Origin: Candidatus Altimarinota bacterium
Lineage (GTDB): Bacteria; Patescibacteriota; Gracilibacteria; BD1-5; UBA2023
DNA length: 64,000 nt
NCBI GenBank assembly: GCA_023230505.1
Contig: JALNXF010000002.1
Coordinates: 1 to 64,000 of the forward strand
Direction of reading: 5' to 3'
Made by a program: the position numbers and the translations under genes. Below the pieces are notes generated by a model. That model did not search any database, was not told where the DNA came from, and saw only the letters and a program-made list of their open reading frames with translations. The first letter of the stretch is position 1. Each line of letters begins with the position of its first letter. This document shows, piece after piece, positions 7,872-58,672 of the stretch.

Positions 7872-7898
7872 TGAAATAAAAATTTCAAAAATTCGTAT
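7872..7898 (+). promoter_or_regulatory. ECF-type promoter (site A) before the ECF sigma gene
   Basis: TGAAAT (7872-7877), 16 bp, CGTAT (7894-7898). This is the -35/-10 layout of SigW-like ECF promoters. It lies 70 bp before the ECF sigma gene, suggesting autoregulation. The same layout occurs at 19984 and 22415. Confidence 0.7.
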
Positions 7899-7968
7899 CA
7901 AACAATGAGTGAGATTTAGTAAAAAAATAAAAATCAATATAATATAAAATATTTCTAAAATAAATAAA

Positions 7969-8535
7969 ATGGTTTCATCAGATTTAACTGATTATGAGAT
8001 AATCCAGAAAATAAAAGAAAATCCGGATAATTTTGGGCTTATTATTGATAGATATGAGCAAAAACTCTATAAATATATAATGCGCTCTACCGATATTACA
8101 AATGAAGAAGCAGACGATTTATTGCAAGAAATATTTATAAAAGTCTACAAAAATATATTTGAAGTAAAGGAAAATCTCTCGTTTTCTTCTTGGATTTACA
8201 GGATTGCACACAATTATATAATAGATTATTTTCGCAAAAATAGCAAAATTGAAAAAGTGAGTTTAGATGATGAGTCATATAGTTTCCTGATAAACAATAT
8301 AAAAAGTGACTTTGATCCAAGACTCGATTTAGATAAAAAAGAGATAAAAGAAATTGTGCAACTTGCTTTGTCAAAAATAAAAAAAGAGTACAGAGAAATT
8401 CTAATTCTAAAATTTATTGAAGACAAAAGTTATGATGAAATAAGTGATATCCTCCGTATACCAACAGGAACTGTCGGGACACTTATAAATAGAGCAAAGG
8501 CTCAAATTAAAGAAAACTTAAATTTTAATTTTTAA
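7969..8535 (+). CDS. ECF-type RNA polymerase sigma factor
   Basis: 188 residues, the usual length of an ECF sigma factor. Region 2 spans about residues 22-90 (DDLLQEIFIKVYKN and SWIYRIAHNYIIDYFRK, the core-binding and -10 recognition helices). Region 4 spans about residues 130-182 (EILILKFIEDKSYDEISDIL, then PTGTVGTLINRAKAQIKE), the -35 recognition helix-turn-helix. It contains no TGA codon. A membrane protein follows 10 bp downstream in the position usual for an anti-sigma factor. Three TGAAA-N16-CGTAT promoters in this window, one before this gene, are the likely targets. Confidence 0.93.
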   Translation: MVSSDLTDYEIIQKIKENPDNFGLIIDRYEQKLYKYIMRSTDITNEEADDLLQEIFIKVYKNIFEVKENLSFSSWIYRIAHNYIIDYFRKNSKIEKVSLDDESYSFLINNIKSDFDPRLDLDKKEIKEIVQLALSKIKKEYREILILKFIEDKSYDEISDILRIPTGTVGTLINRAKAQIKENLNFNF

Positions 8536-8545
8536 CTATCACATT

Positions 8546-9250
8546 ATGTCAATCAAAGATAAAATTCTTGGGAAAATCAAGAAAGAAGAGGTAAAACCAA
8601 CTTCCGTGGGTTATTTTATAACAAAAAAATATTTACAAATATGAGCTTTGATATTTCTATTATTTGTAGGAATTCTTCTTACAATGCTATTTATGTCAGA
8701 TTTTGGGGAAAATATGAGATTTTTTAATCTTCGTTATTTTCATTTCCCACTTCTTTGGATTTTAATAATTTTTTGAATTTGATTTTTTGCATTTAAAGAT
8801 TTCCAAAATACTGGAAAAGGTTATAAATATCCAATTTGATGGATAATTTGAACTATTATCGCAATATTTATTTTTGTAGGATTTTTAGGTTATAGATTTG
8901 GAGTTGGACACAATATGAATAACTATATGGGTTCACATATGAGATGATATAGAGATTTTACTCTAGGTCAACAAATGTGGAAAAATCCAAGTGAATGAAG
9001 GATGTGAGGTATTATTGAAGAAATTAAAAATGACAAAATTATTATCTCAAATATTAGATGAGATAAATTTAGCGTTACCCTTTCTTGAAGTGCAAATTCA
9101 AGTAACTTAAATATCTGAGACAGAGTGAAAATTATCTGACAAAAAACCGGAACTTGAGAATTTATCGCAACCGAAATTATAAATTCTGCCGGTATGTGAG
9201 GAGGGATGATGTGATGAAGATGAGGAAGATGAATGATGAACTGGAGATAA
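8546..9250 (+). CDS. Membrane protein with Gly/Met tail, ECF sigma partner
   Basis: 234 residues, co-transcribed with the sigma gene. A short cytoplasmic N-terminus is followed by three apolar segments at about residues 30-50, 68-82 and 97-115. Next comes a Met/His-rich stretch (GHNMNNYMGSHMRG), then a small beta-rich domain (IIEEIKNDKIIISNIRG...VTLSG) resembling the OB-like domain used for metal or ligand binding. The tail is GMGGGMMGGRGGRGMMNWR, where most glycines are TGA. By position it is the likely anti-sigma or signal-sensing partner, but no known anti-sigma domain is visible. The Met/His content would suit metal or redox sensing; that is inference. Confidence 0.75.
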
Positions 9251-9253
9251 CAA

Positions 9254-9287
9254 AAAATCTCTCGCAAAGCGAGAGATTTTTTTAATT
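9254..9287 (+). terminator. Intrinsic terminator
   Basis: AAATCTCTCGC-AAA-GCGAGAGATTT followed by a T run. It can end both the sigma operon and the convergent rubrerythrin gene. Confidence 0.9.
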
Positions 9288-9294
9288 TAAAATT

Positions 9295-9870
9295 TTAATA
9301 ATTCTCTACCCAAATTTCAAAATATGATTTTGGGTGATCGCAGCTTGGACAAACTTCAAGAGCCTTATTCCCAGTATGAATATATCCACAATTCGCACAT
9401 TTCCATTTTTTTATTTCAGATTTTTCAAAAACCTCATTGTTTTTAATATTTTCAAGAAGTTTTCTATATCTTGTCTCGTGAGCTTTTTCTACTAGTGCTA
9501 TACTTCTCCAAACTTTCGCAATATCACTAAATCCTTCTTCATCAGCTATACGAGCAAATTCTGGATAAAGTTCTGTCCATTCCTCATTTTCTCAATTAGC
9601 TGAAGCTTCCAGATTTTCAAGAGTTGTACCTATCTTCCCAGCTGGGTAAGTAGCTGTAATTTCCACCATTTCTCATTCAAGAAATTTAAAAAATCTCTTT
9701 GCATGTTCTTTTTCATTTAGTGCTGTCTCTTCGAAAAATGCCCTAATTTGCTCATATCATTCACTTTTTGCAACCTTTGCAAAATAATCATAACGCATTC
9801 TAGCTTGAGATTCCCCCGCGAAAGATTTTAAAAGATTTTTTTCAGTTTGGGTTCATTTAATACTTGCCAT
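9295..9870 (-). CDS. rbr: Rubrerythrin
   Basis: 191 residues. The four-helix di-iron domain (about residues 1-145) carries the EXXR/EXXH ligands in SFAGESQARMRY, FFEETALNEKEHAKRF and LVEKAHETRYRKL. The C-terminal rubredoxin domain carries CANCGY and CPSCD, which bind one iron. Rubrerythrin reduces hydrogen peroxide with electrons from rubredoxin-type donors, so it protects an anaerobic or microaerophilic cell. The glycine in MASIKGTQ is TGA, which excludes the standard code. Transcribed alone, ending at the shared terminator at 9254. Confidence 0.96.
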
Positions 9871-9940
9871 AATTTATTTAATTAGAAATTAAAATACGAG
9901 AGTATTGTAATATTTTTTTGAATTAAATCAAATTTTTGAG

Positions 9941-10903
9941 TTACATCACCACATTAAAAAAATACCCAAGTAAAATCATAAAAAATCCGACGATTCCGAA
10001 GAATGTAAGGAGTAATTTCATACTCATAACTTTCTTTAAAATCAAAAATTCTGGTAAACTAAGTCCGACAACCGCCATCATAAAGGCAAGTCCGGTTCCG
10101 AGGGGAATTCATTTTGTGATAAGAGCTTGAATTATCGGTAATATGCTTGTAGCATTGGCATACATCGGTATCCCTAGAATTACTGAGATTGGCACTGCGA
10201 AAGGATTTGATTTAGTAATATATTTTTCAAAAAATCCGGTTGGGACAAATCCATGAATTAGTCATCAAATAGCCACTCCGAGTAAAACATAAGGCATAAT
10301 TTTCCAGATAAGAAAAAAACTGTCCTTACTTACTTCTCTTAAAAATTTCTTCCATTTTCTGGTTTCTTCTTTTACTTCAGTTGGGACTCAAATACTCTTC
10401 CAGATAAATTCTGCCACTTCTCATTCCATTTTTAATTTCCCAATTATAAATCCTCAAAACATTCAAAGAAACATTCAAGAGGCTACATAAATAGCTGTGA
10501 TTTTAAGTCCAAAAAGTCCTATAAACAAGGCAACCGCGACTTCATTGATAAGGGGTGATGTAATGAGGAAGGTAAATGTGATTCCAAGAGGAATTCCAGC
10601 CTTCAAGAATCCCACAAACATCGGAATACTCGAGCAAGTACAAAATGGAGTTACAGCTCAAAATAGAGCAGAAAGTAAATAATCAAATCAAAACATTTTA
10701 TTTTTTACCAAGAAATCTCTGATTTTTTCAATCGGTAAGAAATGATTTATTAAAGTCATTAAATGAACTATAAAAATCATCAAGAAAAAAATCTTAATAC
10801 TATCATAAATGAAAAAATTCAGTGCTTCTCCAAGATGAGAACCATCAAGTTTGAGCAAAGAATAAGAAATATAATCAGCAAAAATTTGTATAAAATCAAA
10901 CAT
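9941..10903 (-). CDS. UPF0718 (DUF318) family permease
   Basis: 320 residues with about eight membrane segments. PFCTCSSIP near residue 87 and the later [13 protein letters not shown] are the paired signature motifs of this permease family (YraQ-like, also found in arsenical gene clusters). It lies 3 bp downstream of a 78-residue CPNC mini-thioredoxin, the usual partner gene. Known relatives have been linked to export of organoarsenicals or other thiol-reactive compounds, but the substrate here cannot be read from the sequence. Start at the ATG directly after the thioredoxin stop. Confidence 0.9.
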
Positions 10904-10906
10904 ATT

Positions 10907-11143
10907 TTATTTTTTTAAAAGAGATAAAATTTCCAAAACACTCAAAACTTTTCCAGAACTTACGACTTTCTCATCTATTACGAGAGCCGGAACGGACATA
11001 ATATTATAATTCATAATTTCTGCAATATCTGTAATTTTCTCGATATTTGCCTCTATAGAAGCAACTTTGACCGCCGATTTTACATTATTTTCAAGTGTCA
11101 TACAATTCGGACAACCAGTTCCGAGGATTTTTATAGTTTTCAT
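10907..11143 (-). CDS. Small thioredoxin-fold protein (CPNC)
   Basis: 78 residues. GTGCPNC at residues 8-14 is the redox-active CxxC motif at the start of helix 1, and MSVPALVID near residue 50 holds the cis-proline of the thioredoxin fold. This is the redox-active disulfide protein 2 family, regularly encoded next to UPF0718 permeases, as here (3 bp gap). It probably delivers electrons or a thiol to the permease substrate. Confidence 0.9.
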   Translation of the reverse strand: MKTIKILGTGCPNCMTLENNVKSAVKVASIEANIEKITDIAEIMNYNIMSVPALVIDEKVVSSGKVLSVLEILSLLKK

Positions 11144-11168
11144 ATTTTTTAAAATAAAGAATTAAAAT

Positions 11169-11954
11169 TTATCCCAAACTCTTCCATACAAATTCAAATA
11201 GATTTCTCATCATGGTTGTGAGTTGGGCTTCTTTTATATGAAGTCCAATTATTGGGTAGTTATCGGTAATCATTATAAGATTATCTCCGGCAATTATCAT
11301 AGTTTCTGTTTCTCCGAAATCATCACTTAATATACGAGTTTCTCTTAAAAATTCACTATCTTGTTTTTGTAATTCTTCTCAAATACTGGCTTCATTTGTG
11401 ATAAATCTCAGTTTAATTTTGGCTTCAAGCCTTTTAGTTGAGAAAATTTTGTCCTCATAATTGTAGATAGCCTCAAGTTTTGTCTCGTCTTTTATATTTT
11501 GTTTTTTATATTTAGAATTAGAAATCATAAGTATTTCTCACGCATTTTTCTTTAATGATTTTTCCAGAAGTTCATAATAAGCCTCTTCTCATTCAAAATA
11601 ACTCGCTTGTGGATCCTTTTTGTGAGGATTTTTTAAGGTGTCCAAATGAGGCACTAACTTCTCTGCTAAATCTAATTTTTTTCTTAAATCTCTTGTCTGT
11701 TTATTAAGATTTGTTATTAATTTTTCTGGACTTTCTGGGAAATAAGTAAGTATATTTTCTTTATCAATTTTTAAAACTAAATTCTTCTGCACAAGTCTAT
11801 CTAAAACCTGATAAACAGTTGCTCTCGGCAATCAAGTCTCTCTAACAATAGTCCCAGCTATCGCATTCCCAAACTGCAAAAGACTCAAATATATCGTAGC
11901 CTCATTTTTATCAAGCCCCAATTCCTCCAGATATTTTGCGTATTTTGATGACAT
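11169..11954 (-). CDS. TrmB-like transcriptional regulator
   Basis: 261 residues. An N-terminal winged helix-turn-helix of the TrmB type (about residues 8-75, LGLDKNEATIYLSLLQFG and GLPRATVYQVLDRLVQKN) is followed by a coiled linker and a C-terminal effector domain (about residues 120-255) of the PLD-like TrmB middle-domain kind. It lies just upstream of the mini-thioredoxin/permease pair in the same orientation (25 bp gap), so it probably controls that pair and itself. The effector is unknown. Confidence 0.85.
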
Positions 11955-11977
11955 AAATTTAAAATTAAAAAATAATA

Positions 11978-13150
11978 TTATTTAAGCATTCCAATCTCTT
12001 GTCTATTAAAAGTCCATAAATTAAATATTATCAAAAAGATAATTAACGCAATGTTAACAAAATAAATATTAACTAGTCAAACTTTGCCTATAATTAAGGA
12101 TAAAATAATATTGAAAAAGGAATAACAAATTATTATAAAAAAAGAGAAAGTTGATAAAATTGTGGATTTTTGGTTTTTAGGAACTTTATGTATCAAAAAA
12201 TTGTTTCAAAAAGTCATTACAAATCAAAACATTATTGAAACAATGATTACCGCGACTAAGGCAAATTCCCTTTGAAATAAGCTAAACAAAACACTTACAA
12301 AAAAAACCATTAATAGCATTATATTTAAAATTTGTTTGTCATTAAAATAATTGCTGATTTTCTTAAATAAATAGCTTCATAAAGCTGAAAATAACGCTCA
12401 AATTGTGAAAATAATTCAAATAAATTCTATACTAAATCATAATTGTCTAAAATATGGTTGTTGTGTGAAAAAATAAACATTTCAAATTCAAGATAATAAT
12501 CACAAAATAAGCATAAAATTAAATATAAATTTATGCTTTAATAAAAAATTAAAAGTTTCTTTTAAATGTAAGAAATCATTTTTATGAACTGATAAAATTT
12601 GAGTTGGTTCTTTCAAAAAAATAGTCAAAATAAGTATTATAATTTTAGAAAATAAAGTAAAATAAACAGGCAAAAGTGGATTTACAACAAACAAAAATCA
12701 AGAAACTGAAGCGGAAATAGCTCGTCATAAAAATACTGATATATAGGAATTAGAACCAATATCCCTAAATTCTTTTTCATTTCCCTCTTCTTCAAGATTA
12801 TCATGAACTAATGCTTCCAAATTTCAAGAAATTATAGCTCCTCATATTCAGTTAATTATTCCGGCAATTATAAAACAACAAAAGCTAGTTGATAAAGCCC
12901 AAAAAACTAAATTTAAAATAAGCAATATTGTTCACAAGATATACAATTTTTTTCTTCCAAATCTATCAGCCCAAACTCAAGAAGGAACCTCAAAAATAGT
13001 TGCTGTAATTCAACTTAGAGTTATTAAAAATAATGCCTGTCAAAATGAAAAATTGAGGTAACTAGTGAAGAAAAAAGCCCAAATTGCAGTTGTAAAAACA
13101 AAGGTTTCTAAAAAACTTATAGAGTAAAAAAGATAAATATTTTTCTTCAT
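11978..13150 (-). CDS. Major facilitator superfamily transporter
   Basis: 390 residues with about 12 hydrophobic segments. GADRFGRKKLYI near residue 62 is the loop 2-3 signature of MFS carriers, with its first glycine encoded by TGA. A cytoplasmic loop in the middle (ILSVHKNDFLHLKETFNFL) separates the two six-helix halves. The substrate cannot be inferred. It sits 23 bp upstream of the TrmB-like regulator gene in the same orientation and could belong to the same transcript. Confidence 0.9.
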
Positions 13151-13179
13151 AAATGAAATTTTAATTTCTAACTAAAAAC

Positions 13180-13385
13180 TATTATATCACTTTTACCCCA
13201 AAATTACAAATTTATTTGTCTATTTCTGACGACAAAAATTTATCTCATTGCTAAGCCATGAATTCCTGATTTTCTAAAAAATATTTTATCAAATTTTGTG
13301 AAATATTTTAAAATGATTAATGTCCTTGTGTCAAGGCAACTTGATTTCTTCAAAAAGAAGAATTTAATTTTTAACTTTTAGAATT
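13180..13385 (+). promoter_or_regulatory. 5' region shared by the MTT paralog family
   Basis: About 150 bp before 13386 resembles the region before 16368: both contain TAAGCCAT, a TTTATCAAATTTTGT-like block, AAAATGATTA and a CTTCAAAAAGAAG-type inverted repeat. All four family genes have the start context AACTTTTAGAATTATGACAAC or a close variant. This suggests a duplicated promoter and leader. Confidence 0.6.
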
Positions 13386-13754
13386 ATGACAACAATAGAT
13401 CGTATTGAATGAGTTAATACTCCAGCAGAAAAACAAGAAACTTTTTTGCAAAAACTTGTATCAAACAATAAAGCACAAATACTTTGATTAATAGCACTAG
13501 CTTGTATTCCTATACAATGATGTGATAAAATAAATGCAAAAGGTAAAGAAATACAAAAAGAAGAACAACAAAGAAGGGCAAAAGATCTAAATGATTTCCG
13601 TGAACAAAGAGCAAAAGAATTACCAAATAAACTTTATTATGTCAAAGATAAGGCATGAATTTGTTATGCTGCAGTTGATAGTTATGCTCGTGGCTATATA
13701 AGAAGTATTGTTACTGTCCCTTGTGAAAAAGTAGAACATCTTATTCACAAATAA
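13386..13754 (+). CDS. Small anchored protein, first gene of the MTT cluster
   Basis: 122 residues, function unknown. It starts MTTIDRIEGVNTPAEKQ. An apolar stretch (ILGLIALACIPIQGC, residues 33-47) ends in a cysteine and could be a membrane anchor or a degenerate lipobox. A charged helix (KEIQKEEQQRRAKDLND) and a short C-terminal domain with two cysteines follow. Its start context is shared with the three MTT paralogs downstream, and it lies 36 bp before the first of them, so they are probably one transcript. Confidence 0.7.
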
Positions 13755-13790
13755 ATAATTTAAATATTTTATATCTTAACTTTTAGAATT

Positions 13791-14762
13791 ATGACAACGA
13801 AATTTATGGACGCCGATGGTCGTGTATTAGATCATGAAATAGCTGAGGAAATGGCATATATTGAGAAACCTTATAGAGAAAATAAATTAGGAATTATAAA
13901 ATCAATATTCATATGAAGAGCTTCTGAAATACTAAAATGACAAGAAAAATCAGAAGAATTCTTAAATAAAAAAATAGAATTTGAAAAGAAATTAGAAGAA
14001 GAATTAAGACTTGCAGAGGAAAAAAGAATAGCGGAAGAGAAAAAAGCTGAAGAAGATAGAATAAAAAAGGAGCAAGAAGAAATAGGAAGAGATCTTGTAA
14101 ATAATACTATATTAAATAGTGAAGAAAATTTTAAGAAATTCCTATCAAAACTGGAAAATATAGATATGGATTTATTGGGATTTTATACTACAAAAAATGG
14201 TGAACAAGAAATTTATTGAAGAGTTGATTGAGTTAAGGTAGAAATTACACTAAAACGTCATAAAAAATATGACGGTAAAATTTTATGAGAAAGGTTTTAT
14301 AGCTACTATTGGAGATATACCTGAAAACTAAATTGAGTATATTTAAAAGATGAATATTGTAAAACAATTTTAGAGAAATATAGAGAAGTTCAATCTAAAA
14401 TTACAGGTACTAGGGATACCCTGCCAAGTAATGAGCTAAAATATATAAAATTAATGAATGAATGAAATTATTCACTTCATTACAATAATAAGGTTCATTG
14501 AAATGATGATAAATTTGAAAAAGATAGTAATATACTTTGAATCACACCTAATGAAGTTAAAGAAAAAAGTAATACGCTGTATTGAACAATCTGAGAAAAT
14601 AAGATAGAAATAACTACTTATGAAGTAAGAGGATATACTCAAAATACAAGAACTTCAACAAGTGATGATATATCTGGAAGAATTGATTGAGCTCGTATTT
14701 CAAAAAAACTTGCCGCAATGATTCGGACTAAATTTCATCAACAAGCAGCAAAAGCAGCTTAA
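13791..14762 (+). CDS. MTT-family protein with duplicated C-terminal domain
   Basis: 323 residues. The N-terminal module (about residues 1-48) contains IAEEMAYIEKPYRE and ends in a SEIL motif; it is shared with the genes at 16368 and 17758. A charged coiled-coil of about 55 residues rich in Glu and Lys follows. The C-terminal part appears to be a duplicated beta-rich unit (IYGRVDGVKVEITLKR and LYGTIGENKIEITTYE, each followed by a Y-rich stretch and a basic helix). No family recognised. A shared N-terminal tag on differing C-termini is seen in secreted or targeted effectors, but no signal peptide is present. Confidence 0.75.
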
Positions 14763-14780
14763 TTTAAACTAAAGAAAAAA

Positions 14781-14804
14781 ACTGGCTTTTAGCCAGTTTT
14801 TTTT
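14781..14804 (+). terminator. Intrinsic terminator
   Basis: ACTGGCT-TTT-AGCCAGT followed by eight T residues, 18 bp after the MTT-family stop codon; an A run in front could make it bidirectional with the convergent gene ending at 14825. Confidence 0.9.
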
Positions 14805-14824
14805 GAAAATTTTTTGTAAAAATT

Positions 14825-16132
14825 CTAGAGTTTGGCCCTAAATTCTTTGGAATTTACCATTTTGTACAGTATTTCTATATTATCAAAAAAATATACTTGG
14901 ACTATTTCTCTTGGATTGATACATTTTCTGAAAAATCAGACATTATCTACAAAATCTGCATTTTTTCAAAAATCATATAGGAAACAAATATCAACAATTG
15001 ACTTTGGATAGAGCTTTTCAAAGCGTTCTTTTAATTGCACAAGCGTAGCTCAAGTACTTGTATCATGTTCACAAACTAGAATTTTTTTAGGATTTTTTGA
15101 ATTTACTTTTCATTCATTTTCTCATATTTTCCTCCATACAGCCTCTTTTTTCCATTTTTTATGCCACTCCATATATCCCACATTTCTACCGAACATTTCA
15201 TGTAAAGCTGCGACTCCTGTGCCACTTCCAAGTATTCAAATTGTAAAATCATAATTATTTCTAAGAGTTTCAACTGCCATATTAAGGCTTTCAGCATTAA
15301 GAAGTTGTTTAAATGGAATATTATATTTTTTACAGTATTTCTTGAGCTCTCTATTTATTTTCTTAATTCTTTTCTTAAAATAAGGCATCGAGTCAAAAAA
15401 TGGGTAACCCAATCCATGTTGTCTTATATATTCTCCTGTTGCTATTCTTTTTTCAGATTTTGTAGAGAAATTTAAAATTAATTCATAAATATCTGCATCG
15501 CGATAATCCACTCAATTAGGAAAATATAGCCTTCTTTTGCTTAAAACTTTTTTGGCTTCATTTTTATCTCACAAAAAAGTCAAAAATTTCCTTCATAAAT
15601 AAGGATTTCAGCTTTTGAAAAAATATGAATATAAAATTTTAGAGATTTTTTTGATTTTTTGTAGCTCAAATTCTCATATTTTTTCACAAGTTTTTTGTTG
15701 AGATGAAAGAGATTTATTAATATTAAGCCCGACTGATTTCAAGAAAATATCAAAATCATTTACAAGCAAAATAAAGGCATTGTGTGGCGAAACTCCTTCA
15801 GTATTTATCTGATATAACAGTCAATATAAATTTGAAATAAAATCATACATCTTATGAGAAATGTCATTATTTGTTCATTCATTTTTGATGGTATCTTTTT
15901 CTTTTAAGATTCACAAAATTTCTTTAAAAATCCCTTTTTCATAATCTCTCATTTTCAAAAATGGAAAATCTTCTTTTGATAAGTTCTTGTTTTGATCTAA
16001 AATAGAGTTAATTCAAATAGCCACAAATCTCTTAAATAGGGCAACTTTATTTTTCGCAGAAAAATTCTCACCAAAAGAAAGTCTTTTGATATAATCATTC
16101 CTAAAATCTCTATAATTATCACAATTTTTCAT
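14825..16132 (-). CDS. Phosphoribosyltransferase-like protein, 435 aa
   Basis: The C-terminal 190 residues have the layout of a type I phosphoribosyltransferase. An early glycine loop (IGILGSGTGVAALHEMFG) is followed by a long loop and then ILVCEHDTSTGATLVQL near residue 355, which matches the PRPP-binding pattern of acidic residues and the loop T-x-T-G-x-T. The N-terminal half is helical and unfamiliar. The acceptor base or other substrate is unknown. The gene sits opposite in orientation within the MTT paralog cluster. Its promoter has TTTGCC, 18 bp and the extended -10 TGTTATACT (16189-16160). Confidence 0.7.
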
Positions 16133-16189
16133 TGATTTAATTTAATTAAAAACAGAATTAGTATAACATAATTTAGTAAAAATGGCAAA

Positions 16190-16367
16190 AATTATTTGTC
16201 TTACCTAGACAACAAAATATTATCTTACAAATAAGCCATAAACTCTTAATTTTTCATCAAATATTTCATCAAGTTTTGTTAAATATTTTTAAATGATTAC
16301 TGTAACTCATATCAAGGAAGTTTAATTTCTTTGAAGAAAAACATTTTATATCTTAACTTTTAATACT
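16190..16367 (+). promoter_or_regulatory. Second copy of the MTT-family 5' region
   Basis: This region shares short blocks in the same order with 13200-13385 (AATAAGCCATAAA, CATCAAGTTTTGTTAAATA, AAATGATTA, the CTTTGAAG inverted-repeat remnant and TTAACTTTTA before the ATG). It also holds the divergent promoter of the gene starting at 16132. Confidence 0.6.
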
Positions 16368-17660
16368 ATGACAACGAAATTTTTAGATACAGAAGGTCGT
16401 GTAATAGATCATACTATTGCCGAGGAAATGGCATATATTGAGAAGCCATATAGAGAAACTCCTGTAAATTTCTTAAAAAGAATATTTAATTTAAAATCTA
16501 ATGAAATTCTACTATGAGAAATGGTAGCTATAACTCATTGAGAAGAATTATTTGCCGAAAAAGAAAAGAAAGAAGCAGAGGAATTAGCAAGACAAGAAGA
16601 GGAAAAACGCAAAGAAGATGAAATAGAAGAGAAAAAATGAGAAGAATTAATGAAAATAGAGAATAAAGAAAAAGTTAGCTCATTAATGACTTGATTTGAA
16701 GAGAAAAAATGAGAAATGGATGATTTTGAAAAAAGAGAAATAAAAAGACAAACCAAACTTTATGAGGAATTGACCAAAATTTATGAAACAGGCGGAATTG
16801 AAGGGCTTTGTAACAAATTATGAGTAAGACACAGTATAAATTATGGAGATTATAATTGTATAAACGCAGAAGGAATTATTTCAAAACTCTTTAAAATGAA
16901 TCAAAGAGAAATATTTTCTCCACTTATAGATAAGGTAGCTCAAATATATATTACAACTGATAAATTTGATGATCATTCTCTATGTCATTTATTTGAAGAT
17001 TATGGTAGATCTGAAGAAGAATATTCATTTCTAGATAAACCATCTCTTCGTGAAACAGCTGAATTACTTGTAAATACAGCCATTATTCGTTGATGAGGTA
17101 ATTTATATCGCACCTTATGAGCTTTTACAAGACTTGCCCTAGAGGATATAGAAAATTGAAATCTTGATGAGTTTACATTTCGCCCAGAATGATTTAATAC
17201 AGAGTGACTTTGAAATCGTTTTGATAGAGAATATAATATGAAGTTAATTCGTTTTTGTGAGTCAAAAACACCTCGTGAATTTCTGCAAAAAATGGGTGAG
17301 CTTCAAATTAAAGATTTAACAGAAAAGATGAAAAAAAAGGAAATTGCAGAGTGAGTGCTAGATATTACTTGTGTAGATGTTGACTGAACTCTTATAAAAG
17401 ATTGAGAATTATATTTGCCACTTGTTAATAAATTAACTAGAAATATTCTTTCTTGAAAAAAGGTTGTAATCTTTAGTTGATGAGATCCTGAAATGCAAAC
17501 AGAGAGATTAAGAGAATTATGACTCGATGAAGTATTTTTACCCGTTGTTCCAAAAGAAATGTTTAAATGAATAGAAGTTCACACTATTATAGACGATACA
17601 GAGGCAGAATGACAAGGATTATTATGCGTAAGTTATCTTAATGCAAAATGGATTAGCTAA
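16368..17660 (+). CDS. MTT-family protein with C-terminal HAD phosphatase-like domain
   Basis: 430 residues. The shared N-terminal module is followed by a long Glu/Lys coiled-coil (about residues 60-130) and an unfamiliar helical middle. The last 100 residues form a HAD-superfamily domain: DVDGT at 337-341 (motif I, nucleophile and acid/base aspartates, glycine is TGA), IFSGGDPE (motif II), a VVPKEM lysine candidate, and TIIDDTEAEG (motif IV acidic pair). It could therefore be a phosphatase carried on the common family tag. The small size suggests a capless (C0) HAD acting on a protein or polynucleotide phosphate; that is inference. Confidence 0.8.
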
Positions 17661-17696
17661 GAATTTAGAGTGATTAATATTGTATTGTCAAGAATA

Positions 17697-17726
17697 TTTG
17701 CAAAAATAAAAATAATATGGTAACAT
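17697..17726 (+). promoter_or_regulatory. Extended -10 promoter
   Basis: TTTGCA (17697-17702), 18 bp ending in TGG, then TAACAT (17721-17726), 32 bp before the third MTT-family gene. Same layout as the promoters at 2562, 7809, 39039 and 55752. Confidence 0.6.
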
Positions 17727-17757
17727 AAATATAGTTTAATTTTTAATTATTAGAATT

Positions 17758-18852
17758 ATGACAACGAATTTTAAGGATAATGATGGTAGAATAATAGATT
17801 CTCAAATAGCCGAGGAAATGGCTTATATTGAGAAGCCTTATAGAGAAAACGAACTTGGTATGATGAAATCCATGTTTTCTTGTAGGGCAAATGAGATATT
17901 AAAGTGAGAAAATAGAGCTGAAAAATACTGAAAAGAAGTATTTAAATATTGAAAAATAAAAGATAAAAAGAAAGTATTATCTCCGTACAAAAAAATAAAA
18001 TTTTGATTAAAATGAATAAATATTGATGGTATATTGGAGATAGAAAATTTAAAAAATAATTCTTTAGTAAATAAATTTATTGACGATAATGTTGATGAAA
18101 AACTTAAAAAAGAACTTTCTTCCTTAGATAAGGAGTTAATTGGCAAATATTTAAATAATACTTGATTTTGGAGTAATTATATTTTATATAGAAACAACTT
18201 ATTGAGAGAAATACATTTATTTAATCAAAAATTATCTAAAATAAAAGAAGATTGAAATATTGAATGATATATTGAAGTATTGCATGATTTGACAAAGATA
18301 AAAAAAATCCTAGATATATTTAAGCTCAAAATAACTAGAATGGAAAGAAATGAGTGGGCAAGTGGTCGAGTTTCTCGGGATAGAGAAAGATATTTTGAGA
18401 TTTTTGATGAAAATGTAAACTATTTATGAAATTTAAATATTTTCTCTTTACAACAAGATAATGAACTTAATGAAACTTTAAAAGATTTAATAAATAATGA
18501 AACTCTCAATAAAATTGAAGAAGAAATAAGAAAATATATTCTACAAAATCATATGATAGCATGAAGAGGTAATGATTCATTAAAATGATGAGAAATTTGT
18601 TTTTATGCATATTCATGAGAGAATAATGTTAGCTCTGCGCGGGATGAAATATGTATAATTGATATGAAAAAAGAAGATATTAATCAGAAGATATTTGAGA
18701 TAATGTTAGCAAATAATTTTTTTGTTAGCAATAATTGAAAATGATTATGGCACTGGACATATCCTTCTAAATATTACAGAGCCAGTGAAAATAAACAAAT
18801 TTTTCGTTATAAGAAATGAGAAAAATTACCAATTAAAGCATATTATGTATAA
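17758..18852 (+). CDS. MTT-family protein, 364 aa
   Basis: The N-terminal module is clearly related to the two genes before it (MTTNF, GRIID, IAEEMAYIEKPYRE, ANEIL). The rest is helical to about residue 265, followed by a compact C-terminal domain with several aromatic residues (ICFYAYSGE, LWHWTYPSKYYRAS). No known domain recognised. It has the usual family start context and its own promoter. A 347-residue gene follows 24 bp later. Confidence 0.75.
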
Positions 18853-18876
18853 TTTTATTACCTAAACCTTATAATT

Positions 18877-19920
18877 ATGGTTAATACACCTAATCCAGCT
18901 AATACTGGAAAACAAGAAATAGATACTACTTGAGAATTACAAGTAGAACAAACTACAAGAAAAAATGTGGCTCAAATTCTTTTTAATCCAAGTGATCCAA
19001 AATATAAAAAAGTGGAAGATTTGCCACGTGCTTTTCGTGATGACTTTATAAATACCGAAGATGAAACCGGATTTGTACGCAAAGATGCAGACAAACATTT
19101 TATGGAAGCCCAAAGACAGGCAGACAAAAATATCCGCCACGGAAAAACCGAATGAATTAATGCTGTTGATATACTCTATGATAAAATGTTTGATGAAGAG
19201 GAAGCTTCAGATAAAATTATAGCAGGAATTATAAAAGGAAATGTCTTTGATGGTTTTAAAGAAGAAAGAGAAATTGATGAATTTATTGGTAATTATAATG
19301 CTACTAAAGGCTATACTCTAGGTATGAGATCTAAAAAAATATTAGGAACTAAAAACATTACGAATGAATTATATGAGAGAAAAATTCTCACTAAAAATTT
19401 CTTTATGAAAATTGTAGAGTGATGAGTTTGTTTTTTTCGTATTTATGATAGTATTCCAAAAGAACTTAGAAATGATGAGGAATTTTTATTAAAATTAGCA
19501 GAAAAAACAAATACTGAAATTTCTCTAGGTTTTATATCTAAAAAAATTCTAGAAGAAAAGTGAAATGATTTTTTATTTAAATTAATTGAAGTTGGTGGTA
19601 GATTTAGTAATGAAGAGACAAAAAATATTATTGACAAATATTTTGCAGATAAAGATCATTTACTTGTTATTGATTATTTAAATAAAAACAATACTGAGGT
19701 CAGCAAAAATACTGACAAAATATATTTAGCTATTATAGAAAAATTTAAAAATAATAGGTCAATTAAAGATATATTAGAAATTATGTTTAAATTATATCCA
19801 GAAGTGGCATATAATGATATTTTTAGAAAATCTTATGAATTAAAAAGTATAGCGCTTGAAATTTTAATGAAAATAAAAGATAGGGATGTTAATGAGATAA
19901 TAAAATATCTTGGGAAATAA
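18877..19920 (+). CDS. Hypothetical helical-repeat protein, 347 aa
   Basis: No family recognised. It begins MVNTPNPANTGKQEI with a disordered N-terminus. The body contains repeated helical units (LGMRSKKILGTKNITNEL compared with LGFISKKILEEKGNDFLFKL) that suggest an alpha-solenoid. It lies last in the MTT cluster, 24 bp after the previous gene. The final codons include the first copy of a 20-bp tandem duplication that spans the stop codon. Confidence 0.7.
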
Positions 19921-19937
19921 TAAAATATCTTGGGAAA
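19898..19937. repeat. 20-bp tandem duplication across a stop codon
   Basis: AATAAAATATCTTGGGAA occurs twice in direct tandem. The first copy encodes the C-terminus IIKYLGK and its stop; the second is untranslated. It looks like a recent replication-slippage event. Confidence 0.85.
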
Positions 19938-19950
19938 AATAAGAAATTAA

Positions 19951-19982
19951 AAACTTGCTTAATGAAGCGAGTTTTTCTTTTT
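19951..19982 (+). terminator. Intrinsic terminator
   Basis: AAACTTGCTT-AATG-AAGCGAGTTT followed by a T-rich tract; it ends the MTT cluster. Confidence 0.85.
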
Positions 19983-19983
19983 T

Positions 19984-20010
19984 TGAAAGAAAAAATTCAC
20001 TCTTTCGTAT
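19984..20010 (+). promoter_or_regulatory. ECF-type promoter (site B)
   Basis: TGAAAG (19984-19989), 16 bp, CGTAT (20006-20010), preceded by a T run as at sites A and C. It lies about 130 bp before the secreted Gly/Met-rich protein gene and overlaps the T tract of the preceding terminator. Confidence 0.7.
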
Positions 20011-20047
20011 TAACTTTTGAGAGAGAAGAAAGTAATTTTGATTTTAA

Positions 20048-20074
20048 TAGATTCCCGTCTTCACGGGAATGACA
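20048..20074 (+). repeat. Dispersed palindrome TAGATTCCCG...CGGGAATGACA
   Basis: ATTCCCGTCTTCACGGGAAT flanked by TAG and GACA. A diverged copy in the other orientation lies at 39895-39922. This type of small palindrome is widespread in bacterial genomes. Confidence 0.8.
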
Positions 20075-20143
20075 GAATGCCCTTCCTTATCTCTCGGTCA
20101 AGCTTGAATTTAAACTTTAATTTATTTAATAATTTTATATATT

Positions 20144-20647
20144 ATGAAAAAAACACTACTTATTACCGCTTGAGTTATTGTACTTGGTGCAGTACTTGTA
20201 AGTTCTACTTACGCGGCAAGATGACAAATGTCATCAGGGGCAAATTTTGCTCAAAGAAATAACTCTGGAGCAATTAATCAAAGCTTATATGTATCTAAAA
20301 TCACAAGAACTGTGAACAATATTGCAAATGGAGTTGAGATAACTATGACAACAACTGATGCAAATACTTTAGCTCATATGCAGTCAATGTTTGATAAAAA
20401 TCAAACAAAAACTCCAAAAAATTCTCTAATTACTCTAAAAAGAGAAAAACTAGCTAATGGAACAAAGATAACAATGACTTCAACTGATGCAGAAACTGTA
20501 AAATCTATCCAAGATAGAGCAACTACAGCTAAAATGTGAGCTTTTGGTCAAGGTGGAATGTGAGGTAAAATGTGAGGTAAAAGGGGTGGAGGAAGAGGAT
20601 GAATGAGAGGTGGAAATAACGGAAATTGTCCGATGATAACTCAATAA
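20144..20647 (+). CDS. Secreted repeat protein with Gly/Met-rich tail
   Basis: 167 residues. A signal peptide (MKKTLLITAGVIVLGAVLVS, cleavage after STYA near residue 24) indicates export. Two internal repeats follow, NGVEITMTTTDANT and NGTKITMTSTDAET, each with a helix ending in Gln. The tail is GQGGMGGKMGGKRGGGRGG followed by MRGG, resembling the tail of the sigma-linked membrane protein at 8546. The ECF-type promoter upstream makes it a likely target of the sigma factor at 7969. No known family; a role in the cell envelope is inferred. Confidence 0.8.
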
Positions 20648-20675
20648 TTTGAGAAAAATTTAAAAACTCATCGCA

Positions 20676-20780
20676 GTGGTTGTGGTCCTTGCCATAGGCT
20701 TGAATTACAAAATTTTTCTTCTCGTAAGTATTCTTACCTACACAGCTTCGCCACTCTGGCCAATGCTTAGAAGAAATTAA
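20676..20780 (+). CDS. Possible 34-aa membrane peptide (GTG start)
   Basis: A short frame reads VVVLAIGLNYKIFLLVSILT then YTASPLWPMLRRN. It is apolar and resembles a small inner-membrane segment. There is no ATG or ribosome-binding site, the frame is closed by TAA just upstream at 20661, and its codons are more GC-rich than nearby genes. It may be a remnant rather than a gene. It lies in the same transcript as the secreted protein and just before the terminator. Confidence 0.25.
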   Translation: MVVVLAIGLNYKIFLLVSILTYTASPLWPMLRRN

Positions 20781-20786
20781 CCTTTA

Positions 20787-20820
20787 CAAAAAATCCCCGC
20801 TTGAAAATGGGGATTTTTTA
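20787..20820 (+). terminator. Intrinsic terminator
   Basis: AAAAAATCCCC-GCTTGAAAAT-GGGGATTTTTT; it ends the transcript of the secreted protein and may serve the convergent gene as well. Confidence 0.88.
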
Positions 20821-20868
20821 TTATAAAATATTCATACTGACCTAAGCGTTATGAAATTTAAGGGTCTT

Positions 20869-22344
20869 TTAATTTTGAATTATTTCATTTAATTTAGATA
20901 TGTTTGATCTATAACCTATTTCTTTATCAAATAATTCAGAAATTTTTCTTGAATAAGCTGAATTATAGCGTCCTCATCTTAAGATTTTTAAGGCCTGTTT
21001 TTGTGGCATATTTTTAGTAGATTCTATAAGTGATTTAGATGGAGCAACCATGGCCTCTTTAAACAGGTCCTGTATTTCATCACTAGAAAAATTATAACCT
21101 TTGTATAATATTTTTAAAGCTTCAATAGGCTCTAATTTTTTAGTTAAAGAAATAATGGCTTTAGTAAATATTTTTCTATCATCCCATCCACCATTTTCAA
21201 ATCACCATTCCAAATCTTTTAATATTTCTTTTTGATTAGTATTTTTCGAAACTATATCAACAATTACATTTGCAAAAATTTCAGATATAAAGGTTCAAAA
21301 TCTATGATATTTTTGTTTTAAAAATTTTAAAGCCTCTTTTGATTTCATTTCTTTTAAAACTTCAACAATTGCATTTGCAAAAATTTCACTAGCTTTTCAT
21401 CTAGTATGGTACAATCCCCACTCTAAATCCTCTAAAATATCTTTTGTTCTTTTATTTTTTGTAATCACATCAAAAGAAATTTTGAAGAAATTTTTTATAT
21501 AATTATCATCTTTATTTTTTAAGGTTTCCCAAATTCCTCTTTGTGGCATTTTTTTTGTATTTTCTATAAAAGATTTAGCAGGAATAATCATAGATTCTTC
21601 AAAAGTTTCTATAGAATCTTCAATTCAAGCATTATTACATAGCCATCTTAATGTATCCAAAATATCTTTTGGTTGATTTAACTTTTTTGTAGATTCTATA
21701 AGTAAATTAGAATGAGACATTAAAGCATTTTTAATAATATTTCTACTTTCTCATCTAAAATAAAAGGCATTACTTAAAAATCTTATTGACTCTTTTGGCT
21801 CTAATTTATTAGTTAAATTTACAATAGCTTCTGAAAACATTTTTTCAATTTGAAAATTCGAATGACGAAGTCAAAAACATAATAAATCTATAGCTTCATT
21901 TATTTCCATATTTTTAGCCTGTTCTATTATTAATTTAGCAGGTATAACTTTAGCTTCTTGAAATATACTTGAAATTTTATTTCAAGAATTATCATATCAC
22001 CAATCTAGGTTTAGTAAAGCATCTTCTGGCGACATGGTTTTTGTTAATTCTATAATTTCTTTTGCAAATTTTTCAGTTTTATGATTTAAAAATTTTTCTT
22101 TTAGAGATCCTAAAATAAATTTATCACTTCTTTTTATTTGTGAAATAATTTCTGGAGAATCATTAACACCCATACATTCTAAATGTTCCTCCAAATTTCT
22201 AAGTGGCATATCATTTTCTTCCATATAATCCAAAATTTTTTCAATTTTTTCTGCTGAAATTGCTTTAACTTCTTGTACTTTTCAGGTTCAAGTTATAGCT
22301 TGAACTGGATTGTTTCCTCATTTAGAGATGATATTTTTAGACAT
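20869..22344 (-). CDS. Helical-repeat protein, 491 aa
   Basis: The N-terminus MSKNIISKGGNNPVQAITGTGK is followed by about seven degenerate repeats of 60-70 residues. A typical unit contains an EIFANAIVEVLKEMKSKEAL-like helix pair with a conserved P/L-K-E/D-(A/I)-L segment (KTMSPEDALLNLDW, KKLEPIEALKIL, KNMPQKQALKIL). This is an alpha-solenoid of HEAT or TPR type, probably a protein-binding scaffold. No export signal. The function is unknown; the gene lies alone between two terminators and the ferredoxin promoter. Confidence 0.75.
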
Positions 22345-22414
22345 AATTTTACAAAAATTAAATAATTAACTATTAATATATAACAATAAAATATAAAAAG
22401 TCAAATTCTTTTTT

Positions 22415-22441
22415 TGAAAGAAAAATTTTATTATTTCGTAT
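22415..22441 (+). promoter_or_regulatory. ECF-type promoter (site C)
   Basis: TGAAAG (22415-22420), 16 bp, CGTAT (22437-22441). The core and its T-rich flank closely match site B. It lies 57 bp before the membrane ferredoxin gene. A small inverted repeat, ATCCTAGCTTAGGAT, sits in the leader. Confidence 0.7.
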
Positions 22442-22498: not shown

Positions 22499-23641
22499 AT
22501 GAAAAAATATTTTAATTTGAGAACTTTCTCACAAATTTTGGTAGTTGTAATTATTTTAGGACTTGCTCTAGCTCATCAATTATGGTGAATAGAAAAAGCT
22601 GCTCCGGTTGATGCATATTGTCCTTTTGGAGCTTTGGAAAATTTAATAAAAGCAATGACAAGTTGAGAATTTTTACAAAGAATTTATTTCAGTAATTATA
22701 TTCTTTTATTTATATTTGTTGGAATGACTTTCTTTTTTGGAAGAGTTTTTTGTGGTTTTTTCTGTCCACTTGGAGCAATTCAAGAATGGCTAGGAAAACT
22801 AGGAAAACTTATTTGAATTAAAAAAGATTATGAACTTCCTAAAAAAGTTGATAAAGTAATGAGATATTTTAAATATGTAATGTTAGCTGGATTAATTGTT
22901 TTATCCTATGTTTATTGAGAATTAATTTTTAGATATTATGATCCATTTGTGGCTTTTTCACATTTATGACAGGAATTTGATGAGATTTATTGGGCATACG
23001 GAATTCTTGGAACTATCGTAGTTTTATCACTTTTTACAAAAAATTGGTGGTGCAGATATTTCTGTCCACTTGGAGGTTTTTTCTGAATTATAAAGAAATT
23101 TTCATTTTTTAAGCTTGATAAAAATAATGAGACCTGTACAAAATGTGGAGCTTGTAGTAGATCATGTCCTGTAGGATTGAGTTTTAAAGATATGAAAGCA
23201 GTAAATAGCGCAGAATGTATTAGCTGTCTAAAATGTGTCGATGCTTGTAATTTCTGAGCACTCAAAGCAAAAATAGCCTGAAAAGACATAAGCAAAAAAT
23301 TATTTAGAAATATTGTAGTTTTTTGATTTTTTGGACTTCTTTTAATTATTGTTTTCCTTCCTTTTTGGCAGACTGGACCAGCTTCCAATATTAAGTCAGA
23401 TGATGGTACAATTAATGTGGCAAATCTTAAATGAAGTAATACTCTGGAGTATCTAATTAGAGAAAGTGGAGTGCCTTTCAAGTATTTCCAAGAAAAGCTC
23501 CATCTCCCAGAAAATGTAGATAAATGAGGAAAACTCAAACATATCTGAGAAGATTATGAGATAAAAAACGGTTCTGGAGAATATATTGAAACAGAAGATT
23601 TTAGAGCTGTAACTGAGGAATATCTGAAGGAGAAGAAATAG
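22499..23641 (+). CDS. Membrane 4Fe-4S ferredoxin (NapH/CcoG/YccM-like)
   Basis: 380 residues with five or six membrane helices. Two motifs CGFFCPLGA and CRYFCPLGG are typical of the NapH/NosR/CcoG family. They are followed by two [4Fe-4S] ferredoxin sites, CTKCGACSRSCPVG and CISCLKCVDACNFG. After a further membrane helix a soluble C-terminal tail (residues 300-380) contains TLEYLIRESGVPFKYFQEKL, seen in many such proteins. It should pass electrons across the membrane to an envelope reductase; CcoG relatives reduce Cu(II). It has an ECF-type promoter, so it is a probable target of the sigma factor at 7969. Confidence 0.88.
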
Positions 23642-26706: not shown

Positions 26707-28047
26707 ATGAAAAAAATAATGTCGTTTTTATCTAGAAATAAAATAGCTGTTTTAGTTACATTACTAACTTTGGGGCTTATCTTTATTATTTATTCAGATG
26801 TTTCAAAAAATAATTTATGAGCAGATTCTCTGAGTTATGATAAAATTAATCCATATGTTCTTGTTACAAATTGACAAGCTCTAATTAAAAGAGAAAAAAT
26901 AATTAAATTAATTTCTTGAGAGAAAAATGATATTATTATTTGAGACAAAATAATAACATTAGAAAATTCTTCTGCAACTATTTTTTGGCCAGATTGAAGT
27001 GTTACTAGGCTTTGAGAAAAGAGTTCTGTAACAATCTCAGAAATTACATTTAACCCTCACCCTAACCCTCTCCCAGGGGGCGAGGGAATAAATAGAGTAA
27101 AATTTAATCTAGATTCTGGAAAATCATGGTCAAATATAATAAGATATTTAGATAAAAATTCTTACTTTATAGAAACTTATGAAAATGGGAGACTAGCTGC
27201 TACTGTTAGATGAACTGTTTTTGAAATAAATTTAACAAATAATTATATTCATAGTGTAAATCACTCGATTGCAATAGAAGACACTGAGACCAAAGAAGAA
27301 TATAATATCCCAGAATGAGAAGCTCGCGAAATTAAAAATATTTTGCAGATTGTACAGGAAAAATTGCTTGAAAAATCTTGGATAGATTGGAATAAAAATG
27401 AAGATTTAATTTATATAAATGAGTTAATTAATAAATGGAAAAACGAAATTTCTAAAACTATAAATGATAACGATTTAAAGAATTTATTAACAAATATAGT
27501 TGATTGAAAATCTGAAAATATAGACTCTTTAAAAGAAAAAATTCAAAAAATAACAACCAATAAAGAGGATTATAATAAGGTTTTACTTAATCTTTATCAA
27601 AATATAAATTTCTTGCCAAATTCTGCAAAAAATCTTGAAATAAAAAATTCTCTAAGAGAAGAAATTATCAACTCTGCTACTTGAATAAATAAGCAAAATT
27701 TTATAGATGATTTTATGAGACTTAATTTATTTGATTATTTTGATGCTGTTAAAAATAAAGAAATTACGACTTCAAATAAAATAAAATCTAATATTGAAAA
27801 ATACCTAAAACAAGATAAAAACAGCCAAACAATTAAAAAAATTCTAAATTCATTTGATAAGAAAAAAGTAGAGGAAATTAATTCAAAATTTTCTTGAATT
27901 AGCTCAGCTACAAAAGACATTATAGATAAACTCAAAGATAAAAATATATGAGAAGAATTCCAAGCCCAAACCCAAAAAGACCTAGAAAAAGCAACCTGAA
28001 TTTTTGGAGGTTTTGTCGATAAAATTAAAAATTATTTTGTAAAATAA
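26707..28047 (+). CDS. FecR-domain membrane-anchored protein, 446 aa
   Basis: One N-terminal membrane helix (AVLVTLLTLGLIFIIY) is followed by a FecR-type beta domain at about residues 45-175. It has the pattern GQALIKRE...IIIGDKIITLENSSATI, then WPDGSVTRLGEKSSVTI and later AATVRGTVFEI. The C-terminal half is helical and charged. FecR domains occur in envelope proteins, often signal-related. The palindromic repeat at 27052 adds NPHPNPLPGGEG inside the FecR domain, apparently tolerated as a loop. The function is otherwise unknown. Confidence 0.8.
27052..27087 (+). repeat. Palindromic repeat inside a gene (copy 2)
   Basis: AACCCTCACC-CTAACCCTCTCCC followed by AGGGGGCGAGGG, in frame in the FecR-domain gene, encoding NPHPNPLPGGEG. 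Confidence 0.85.
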
Positions 28048-55711: not shown

Positions 55712-55751
55712 TTATTTAATCAGAGTTTAATCAAGATTTTTATGGTGATTA

Positions 55752-55781
55752 TTTGCATAAAAAAAATATTTATGATAAGAT
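55752..55781 (+). promoter_or_regulatory. Extended -10 promoter of the AAA+/transglutaminase operon
   Basis: TTTGCA (55752-55757), 18 bp ending in TGA, TAAGAT (55776-55781), 30 bp before the ATPase gene. Confidence 0.7.
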
Positions 55782-55810
55782 TAAGAAGTTATTTAATAAA
55801 TATATTATAT

Positions 55811-58669: not shown

Positions 58670-58672
58670 ATT

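Follow-up and report, generated by a model that had tools for sequence, protein, structure and literature searches.

A SigW-like sigma factor, its membrane partner and three matching promoter sites in a Gracilibacteria genome: a probable envelope-stress switch

We analysed a stretch of 64,000 nucleotides from Candidatus Altimarinota bacterium (GTDB lineage Bacteria; Patescibacteriota; Gracilibacteria; BD1-5; UBA2023), positions 1 to 64,000 of contig JALNXF010000002.1 in assembly GCA_023230505.1; this whole stretch is called the window. Three places in the window carry TGAAA[T/G]-N16-CGTAT, and they precede an extracytoplasmic function (ECF) sigma factor gene with its membrane partner, a gene for a presumably secreted protein, and a gene for a NapH-like membrane ferredoxin. 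A first-pass annotation had described these four genes behind their promoters, and the translations and Pfam matches agree with that description given that TGA is read as glycine. The window genes are legible solely with this reading (NCBI code 25), under which 59 largely non-overlapping open reading frames (ORFs) of at least 90 amino acids (aa) cover 85% of the window. Within 7969–9250, the sigma gene has no TGA and three other glycine codons; in the partner gene, 18 of 36 glycine codons are TGA. The features of the system are these:

7872–7898, +, ECF promoter 1, TGAAAT-N16-CGTAT, 5′ of the sigma-partner operon; exact match, 22.5 bits
7969–8535, +, ECF sigma factor, 188 aa, SigW-like, no TGA codon (Pfam, NCBIfam, PDB)
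8546–9250, +, membrane partner, putative anti-sigma factor, 234 aa, 18 TGA codons as glycine (family behind ECF gene; AlphaFold)
8546–8605, +, partner N-terminal segment, predicted cytoplasmic (helix 3–14), candidate sigma-binding peptide (alignment A3, model)
8999–9184, +, partner OB-like (oligonucleotide/oligosaccharide-binding) barrel, residues 152–213, probably outside the membrane (AlphaFold strands; Foldseek, VIA)
9185–9247, +, partner Gly/Met/Arg tail, predicted disordered (translation; predicted local distance difference test, pLDDT, below 50 from residue 217)
19984–20010, +, ECF promoter 2, TGAAAG-N16-CGTAT, 5′ of the secreted protein gene; exact match, 30.8 bits, best in the window
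20144–20647, +, secreted protein with signal-like N terminus, two beta-beta-alpha repeats, Gly/Met/Arg tail and NCPM near the end (translation, model, homologues)
20279–20527, +, tandem beta-beta-alpha repeat region (AlphaFold)
20534–20644, +, Gly/Met/Arg-rich tail of the secreted protein, predicted disordered (translation; pLDDT about 30)
22415–22441, +, ECF promoter 3, TGAAAG-N16-CGTAT, 5′ of the NapH-like gene; exact match, 21.8 bits, third in the window
22499–23641, +, NapH/NosR-like membrane ferredoxin, 380 aa (Pfam Fer4_5, 2.6e-18; NCBIfam NapH below cut-off)

A promoter family before sigma and secreted-protein genes

In the window, we found that TGAAA-N17-CGTAT (which equals TGAAA[T/G]-N16-CGTAT) has exactly three matches on the two strands of the 64 kb; they lie on the + strand, at 7872, 19984 and 22415. 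The chance expectation is 0.07, and three matches were reached in 0 of 100 shuffles; the three promoters with 16-bp spacing that had been proposed are therefore present as described. At each site there is a T-tract 5′ of TGAAA and an A-run 3′ of it, and CGTAT ends 70, 133 and 57 nucleotides (nt) before the ATG at sites 1, 2 and 3. An extended pattern, TTTGAAWDAA-N14,15-CGTA, finds the same three places only (0.03 expected). When we scored the window with a matrix of 80 sites from other genomes (window excluded), gathered by the core TGAAW-N17/18-CGTA, the three sites ranked 1–3 at 30.8, 22.5 and 21.8 bits, as compared to 12.3 bits for the best place elsewhere in the 64 kb; a site of at least 21 bits was present in 1 of 100 shuffled windows.

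Loci in other genomes were gathered as relatives of the partner protein, for which 71 of the 288 genomes in one bacterial class gave a match. The resulting 69 loci are these 71 genomes minus G074, G112, G133 and G281, plus second copies in G192 and G069. For the counts of partners behind ECF genes, of second sites and of the motif, the genetic code was set per genome; some readings of neighbours and tails were all made in code 25, which fused adjacent genes in code-11 genomes (for example at L136). The ECF gene lies directly before the partner in 67 of the 69 loci, the other two being L158 and L208, where no ECF gene was detected and where, in L208, the partner match starts 89 bp from the contig end. 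When gapped words (5+4 letters, gaps 14–19) were counted 5′ of the ECF genes with no motif supplied, GAAAG..CGTA/GTAT came out on top, present in 27 of 64 loci at any gap of 16–19. TGAAW-N17/18-CGTA occurs no more than 250 bp before the ECF gene in 35 of 64 loci (each with at least 200 bp upstream), as compared to a mean of 0.29 and a maximum of 2 in 200 shuffle trials. Behind the partner, 65 loci offer enough sequence, and 30 of them have a second site there, as compared to a mean of 0.41 and a maximum of 2 in the shuffles; mostly it is 5′ of a gene for a presumably secreted protein. Among the 62 loci with both flanks, counting as a second site one behind the partner or 250–1200 bp upstream, 29 have two sites, 5 the ECF site only and 11 the second site only, which gives at least one site in 45. 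Spacing in the relatives is 16 in 22 of 80 sites and 17 in 58, as compared to 16 at every window site, and the sixth base is G in 72% and C in 1%. Taken together, these computations show a promoter family, a sigma factor and partner that are inherited together, and sites before both sigma and secreted-protein genes. The proposed ECF regulon thus holds up: the sigma-partner-secreted set is conserved in one bacterial class, and the motif-free word search recovers the promoter.

As a genome-wide detector, the raw 5+5 pattern was dropped as too loose (88 matches vs 48 for the reversed control). In 16 genomes chosen for having the locus, the extended pattern gave 26 matches vs 9 for the reversed control; 18 of the 26 are at the ECF-partner-secreted locus and 3 are before exporter operons. 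In the window's order, it gave 30 vs 14 in the 18 genomes with the partner and 31 vs 45 in the 59 genomes without it, where the reversed pattern is an imperfect control and one genome counted as partner-less (G270) has an ECF gene, a site and a secreted-protein gene at a contig end. Within L266 (G303, 1–1006), a lone site precedes a gene for a secreted Gly-rich protein with no ECF gene in the 4 kb covered, so relatives, too, may have targets far from the locus. On viral contigs, 34 stretches matched a pattern, and none encoded relatives.

To see the pair beyond this class, we took the best 80 of 491 sigma loci in GTDB genomes and found the partner directly behind the sigma gene in 75 of them, across several phyla; among the five without it, L010, L067 and L079 end less than 200 bp from the ECF gene, and L060 and L071 do not. 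The partner loci among these best 80 come from metagenome bins labelled as many Patescibacteria and as 9 Chlorobi, 2 Deltaproteobacteria, 1 KSB1 and 1 Aerophobetes, and 3 of these last 13 loci (L041, L063 and L070) have a second site.

The sigma factor, the partner and the predicted targets

The sigma factor matches Pfam Sigma70_r2 (PF04542, 1.2e-15) and Sigma70_r4_2 (PF08281, 4.3e-13), the domain make-up of an ECF sigma factor. Its top NCBIfam model is SigW, at about half of the cut-off (107.1 vs 209 for PRK09641; 94.8 vs 243.1 for TIGR02948), which falls short of equivalog assignment, and its nearest solved structure is SigW 5wuq (PDB). The SigW consensus promoter, as given in an excerpt of PMC2375139, is TGAAAC-N16,17-CGTA(T). 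The window sites conform to this consensus except at the sixth base, so the SigW-type layout noted in the first-pass annotation agrees with the consensus as well as with the top NCBIfam and PDB matches.

The partner has no Pfam or NCBIfam match above cut-off. In alignment A3 (51 members), an N-terminal ILxKIKKExIxPxPxWxF is kept, with I11, P18 and F24 in at least 90%; it starts within the predicted cytoplasmic segment (8546–8605). In the AlphaFold model of the partner (mean pLDDT 77, predicted template modelling score 0.51), a short helix comes first, then three helices of membrane length, a barrel of five strands and finally a disordered tail; about 20 residues precede the first membrane-length helix. 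With an odd number of membrane helices, the N terminus would be inside and the barrel outside. An RsiW-like class I anti-sigma domain (ASDI), that is, a cytoplasmic four-helix domain of at least 50 residues, is not what the model contains; set beside the two-helix peptide of class II (CnrY-like), it shows one short helix. The predicted barrel has the five strands of a CusF-like OB barrel and matches OB folds generally (Foldseek, VIA), CusF and YgiW included. CusF-like OB domains have conserved Met/His/Trp metal ligands. No conserved Met/His set was seen in the partner barrel across the 51 members of A3, as read from the alignment alone.

The tail of the partner is Gly/Met-rich in the window (..MGGGMMGGRGGRGMMNWR), and that of the secreted protein likewise (..GQGGMGGKMGGKRGGGRGGMRGG..) and in its close homologues. 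A Gly/Met tail common to the two proteins, as had been noted, is therefore found in the window and close relatives; elsewhere, however, many partner tails are rich in Pro, Arg or Lys. For the secreted protein, AlphaFold (12 sequences) gave pLDDT 67–87 over residues 51–130, with elements at 53–128 and 55 for the whole model; no confident structural match was found for the fold, which does not thereby amount to a new fold. The interval between promoter and ATG of its gene contains a short inverted repeat, ATTCCCGT..ACGGGAAT (20040–20075).

Homologues of the secreted protein adjoin the ECF-partner pair in G254 (E 3.5e-42) and G103 (6.8e-39), whose counterparts of a TsaD-like window gene (named by eye) are 70–71% identical to it; this comparison, like the names of the sigma factor's near relatives, puts the window among Candidatus Gracilibacteria. 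More distant homologues stand beside the pair in G012, G015, G143, G286, G021 and G044, and the homologues in these genomes have their own site. Elsewhere, the second site is followed by a gene for a DUF2202 protein (PF09968), which we take to be ferritin-like, or by genes for other repeat proteins. PF09968 scores 94.8, 96.3 and 107.9 bits in L147, L154 and L263 (cut-off 22), and in the Pfam search it was not matched by the window's secreted protein. A strongly hydrophobic N terminus is present in 40 of 42 ORFs after the second site, by hydropathy alone, which is how signal peptides were judged, and with no background for the measure; one of the 40 is an HlyD-type exporter protein (L202). Over the last 60 residues of the targets, median Gly+Met is 0.17, as compared to a median of 0.08 and a 95th percentile of 0.18 for a background of six-frame open stretches rather than genes. 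The suggestion that other targets might have Gly/Met-rich tails thus stands as a broad enrichment of moderate size. Family counts were not taken from phmmer clustering, which placed 42 of 43 proteins (42 targets and the window's own) in one component, probably through low-complexity tails. We regard the secreted targets as candidates for surface-protection proteins.

For the ferredoxin, which had been called NapH/CcoG-like, NapH is the closest NCBIfam model (106.9 bits vs cut-off 213.05) and likeness to CcoG is weak (39.8 vs 316.7). CcoG/cupric reductase was rejected as its main label because the NapH score is far higher. No nap gene was recognised by eye among the neighbours of the window gene, whose homologues are in 6 of 288 genomes. 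In relatives, other gene sets lie behind sites. A single operon in G001 contains the exporter genes for HlyD, an ABC ATPase and a MacB/FtsX permease, along with genes for a lipoprotein, a YgaP-like membrane protein and a secreted protein that by eye is similar to the DUF2202 targets. Exporter genes (HlyD, ABC ATPase, MacB/FtsX) are also behind sites in G254 and G285 and, with a looser pattern, in G069 and G023; a family search identified the G001 set and the G254 HlyD, the others being read by eye. In G310, a single site is followed by a row of genes for a DUF2202 protein, a membrane protein like ferric reductases (Ferric_reduct), a 4Fe-4S ferredoxin (Fer4), the ECF sigma factor and the partner, and the window's NapH-like gene fits the redox theme of this operon.

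The proposed circuit and its rivals

Sequences and structure models together make it probable, in our judgment, that the three window sites are promoters of one autoregulated SigW-like ECF envelope-stress switch with an anti-sigma partner of a new type. In an unstressed cell, the three-helix inner-membrane partner would hold the sigma factor through its short conserved cytoplasmic peptide. Trouble at the cell surface would be sensed by the partner's external OB-like domain, and the sigma factor would be freed. The freed sigma factor would transcribe its own operon from promoter 1, which is presumably autoregulatory, giving positive feedback. It would also transcribe a secreted buffer or scavenger protein as the conserved core output, together with lineage-specific effectors: the NapH-like membrane electron carrier in the window and, in relatives, either an ABC exporter of the MacAB type plus a lipoprotein, or a ferredoxin plus a ferric-reductase-like membrane protein. 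We infer the anti-sigma role of the partner, its topology, the release mechanism and the envelope/redox-stress function. Judged from sequence, the conserved core is the sigma factor, the membrane partner and the predicted secreted protein, and the recurrence of the switch in many related bacteria suggests a surface-stress response that is widespread and has so far gone undescribed. We are doubtful of a bolder version, in which the secreted buffer would keep the OB-domain anti-sigma factor closed until titrated by damaged envelope, metal or oxidant, and the circuit would be a main extracytoplasmic stress pathway of Patescibacteria; on this view, a few further phyla, Chlorobi among them, share the sigma-partner pair, perhaps with a promoter that has drifted.

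Several results weigh against the envelope-stress switch. At the chosen strictness, the remaining 17 of the 62 loci with both flanks have no site. Among the best 80 of 491 sigma loci, a site is found no more than 300 bp before the sigma gene in 22 and elsewhere nearby in 33, and in none of the 13 non-Patescibacteria partner loci does a site precede the sigma gene, so what is shown to extend across phyla is the protein pair, not the promoter. The core letters of the 80-site matrix were fixed by selection, so only the flanks, the A-run and the sixth base are independent of the window motif. In 15 related genomes the raw pattern reaches 1.8 times its crude reversed control (88 vs 48); the genome-wide check that the first-pass annotation had proposed therefore leaves the raw pattern near background, and specificity comes only with the extended motif of T-tract, TGAAA, A-rich run and CGTAT. 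These raw counts, and the matches with one mismatch in the window (7 vs 6.24 expected, background with no excess), are what one would see if the three matches had arisen by chance in AT-rich DNA or were housekeeping promoters of the ordinary kind. We consider this highly improbable given three exact matches vs 0.07 expected, the motif-free word search, the conservation statistics and the matrix. It is less improbable, though still unlikely, that sites 1 and 2 are real and that site 3 either resembles them by coincidence or is a promoter captured recently that has no role. No site was found at the 6 homologous ferredoxin loci, 5 of which have upstream DNA (L231 starts at a contig edge), the upstream gene in three of the 6 reads as one for an ArsR-like regulator (by eye, no family search), and the protein was matched in 0 of 77 genomes of the window's order, with no positive control in that group. 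Nevertheless, site 3 scores 21.8 bits where nothing outside the three sites exceeds 12.3, has all the motif features and lies 57 nt before the ATG, and a different ferredoxin is operonic with the ECF gene in G310. The ferredoxin was rejected as a conserved regulon member, since its homologous loci lack the site, and the placement of the gene in the regulon is kept in a narrower form: its excellent window motif, which is the evidence here, points to a likely lineage-specific addition.

The partner is the other point of dispute. No recognised anti-sigma domain was found in it with Pfam or NCBIfam, and OB folds are common, so its fold match names no ligand; these points also count against the switch as drawn. 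Were the partner a regulated membrane product of the ECF operon instead of an anti-sigma factor, with the sigma factor controlled transcriptionally or by another protein, the missing domain and a predicted cytoplasmic part of only about 20 residues would be expected. However, the gene order is fixed across phyla, the N-terminal motif is conserved, and class II includes short anti-sigma factors of two helices, CnrY among them (excerpt of PMC7406223), which leaves this reading quite unlikely to us. A tentative possibility that we take more seriously, while preferring general envelope stress, is a metal/redox circuit responding to copper, iron or oxidants, with the OB domain as a metal sensor. 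The Met/Gly-rich secreted, DUF2202, NapH-like and ferric-reductase/ferredoxin proteins would then handle metal or oxidised methionine outside the cytoplasm.

Other features of the window are recorded here as observations. A rubrerythrin gene and an ArsP-type permease gene (9295–10903) are convergent to the sigma operon and lack their own site; a permease that by eye is similar also occurs in G254, close to a lipoprotein-exporter operon with sites (L188). In three neighbouring genes (13791–14762, 16368–17660 and 17758–18852), the N-terminal 50 or so residues are nearly alike (MTT(K/N)F.D..GR..D..IAEEMAYIEKPYRE) and the C-terminal parts differ; the common stretch resembles a leader or sorting module. 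Two ORFs with no relation to each other (269–1000 and 26707–28047) contain PHPNPL..GGEG-like peptides, which suggest a dispersed DNA repeat within genes. Very large genes lie side by side at 55742–63998; judged by eye only, one encodes a 975-aa AAA-ATPase-like protein and the other a product of 1470 aa or more.

Comparison with known systems

Regulation in candidate-phyla bacteria is little known, since most are not culturable. Here a sigma factor, a promoter and targets are defined together with a membrane partner outside all Pfam and NCBIfam models, and the circuit is open to rebuilding and direct testing in E. coli or B. subtilis. If the partner is indeed an anti-sigma factor, it would represent a new structural class, and the secreted targets (beta-beta-alpha, DUF2202 and other repeats) are surface-protection candidates in tiny, often host-attached cells. 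Judging by titles and the starts of abstracts, none of the open-licence PMC papers found on ECF or sigma factors in Patescibacteria, Gracilibacteria or the Candidate Phyla Radiation describes the system.

Cupriavidus CnrYXH resembles the window's system in having an ECF sigma factor, a membrane protein with a short cytoplasmic segment and a small extracytoplasmic protein. In CnrYXH, CnrX is the periplasmic sensor; here, in contrast, the secreted protein is a target, and a sensor role for it is putative. The partner also differs in its three predicted membrane helices and OB-like barrel, and it is likened by layout to CnrY, whose binding mode with CnrH is described in excerpts of PMC7406223 and PMC8103513. 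The NapH/NosR/CcoG ferredoxins are like the window's ferredoxin in their Fer4_5 domains and in NapH being its top NCBIfam model; unlike them, it scores below the NapH cut-off and only weakly for CcoG. CpxP/Spy-type proteins are periplasmic buffers. As with these, a small secreted product is under an envelope-stress regulator and may feed back on it; unlike them, the product here is ECF-controlled and has beta-beta-alpha, DUF2202 or other repeats, and no CpxP/Spy-type family was among the Pfam matches of the scanned targets.

The closest likeness is to Bacillus subtilis SigW/RsiW, in sigma sequence, in promoter (TGAAAC-N16,17-CGTA(T) in the excerpt of PMC2375139) and in sites before the sigma factor's own gene. 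The regulons of some relatives also include a MacAB/YknXYZ-like exporter; the SigW-regulated genes include a peptide exporter (excerpt of PMC6818787), and YknWXYZ resembles MacAB (excerpt of PMC4887032). In contrast to SigW/RsiW, the sigma factor reaches about half of the SigW cut-off, the partner lacks an RsiW-type anti-sigma domain, the motif is extended by a T-tract and an A-run with G, A or T rather than C as the sixth base, and the output is centred on a secreted protein. The circuit as proposed works like SigW-type envelope-stress control and is not a SigW/RsiW member by score or anti-sigma type. The parts of the ECF system are of a known kind, and the partner class and the output are new within the libraries and open papers searched.

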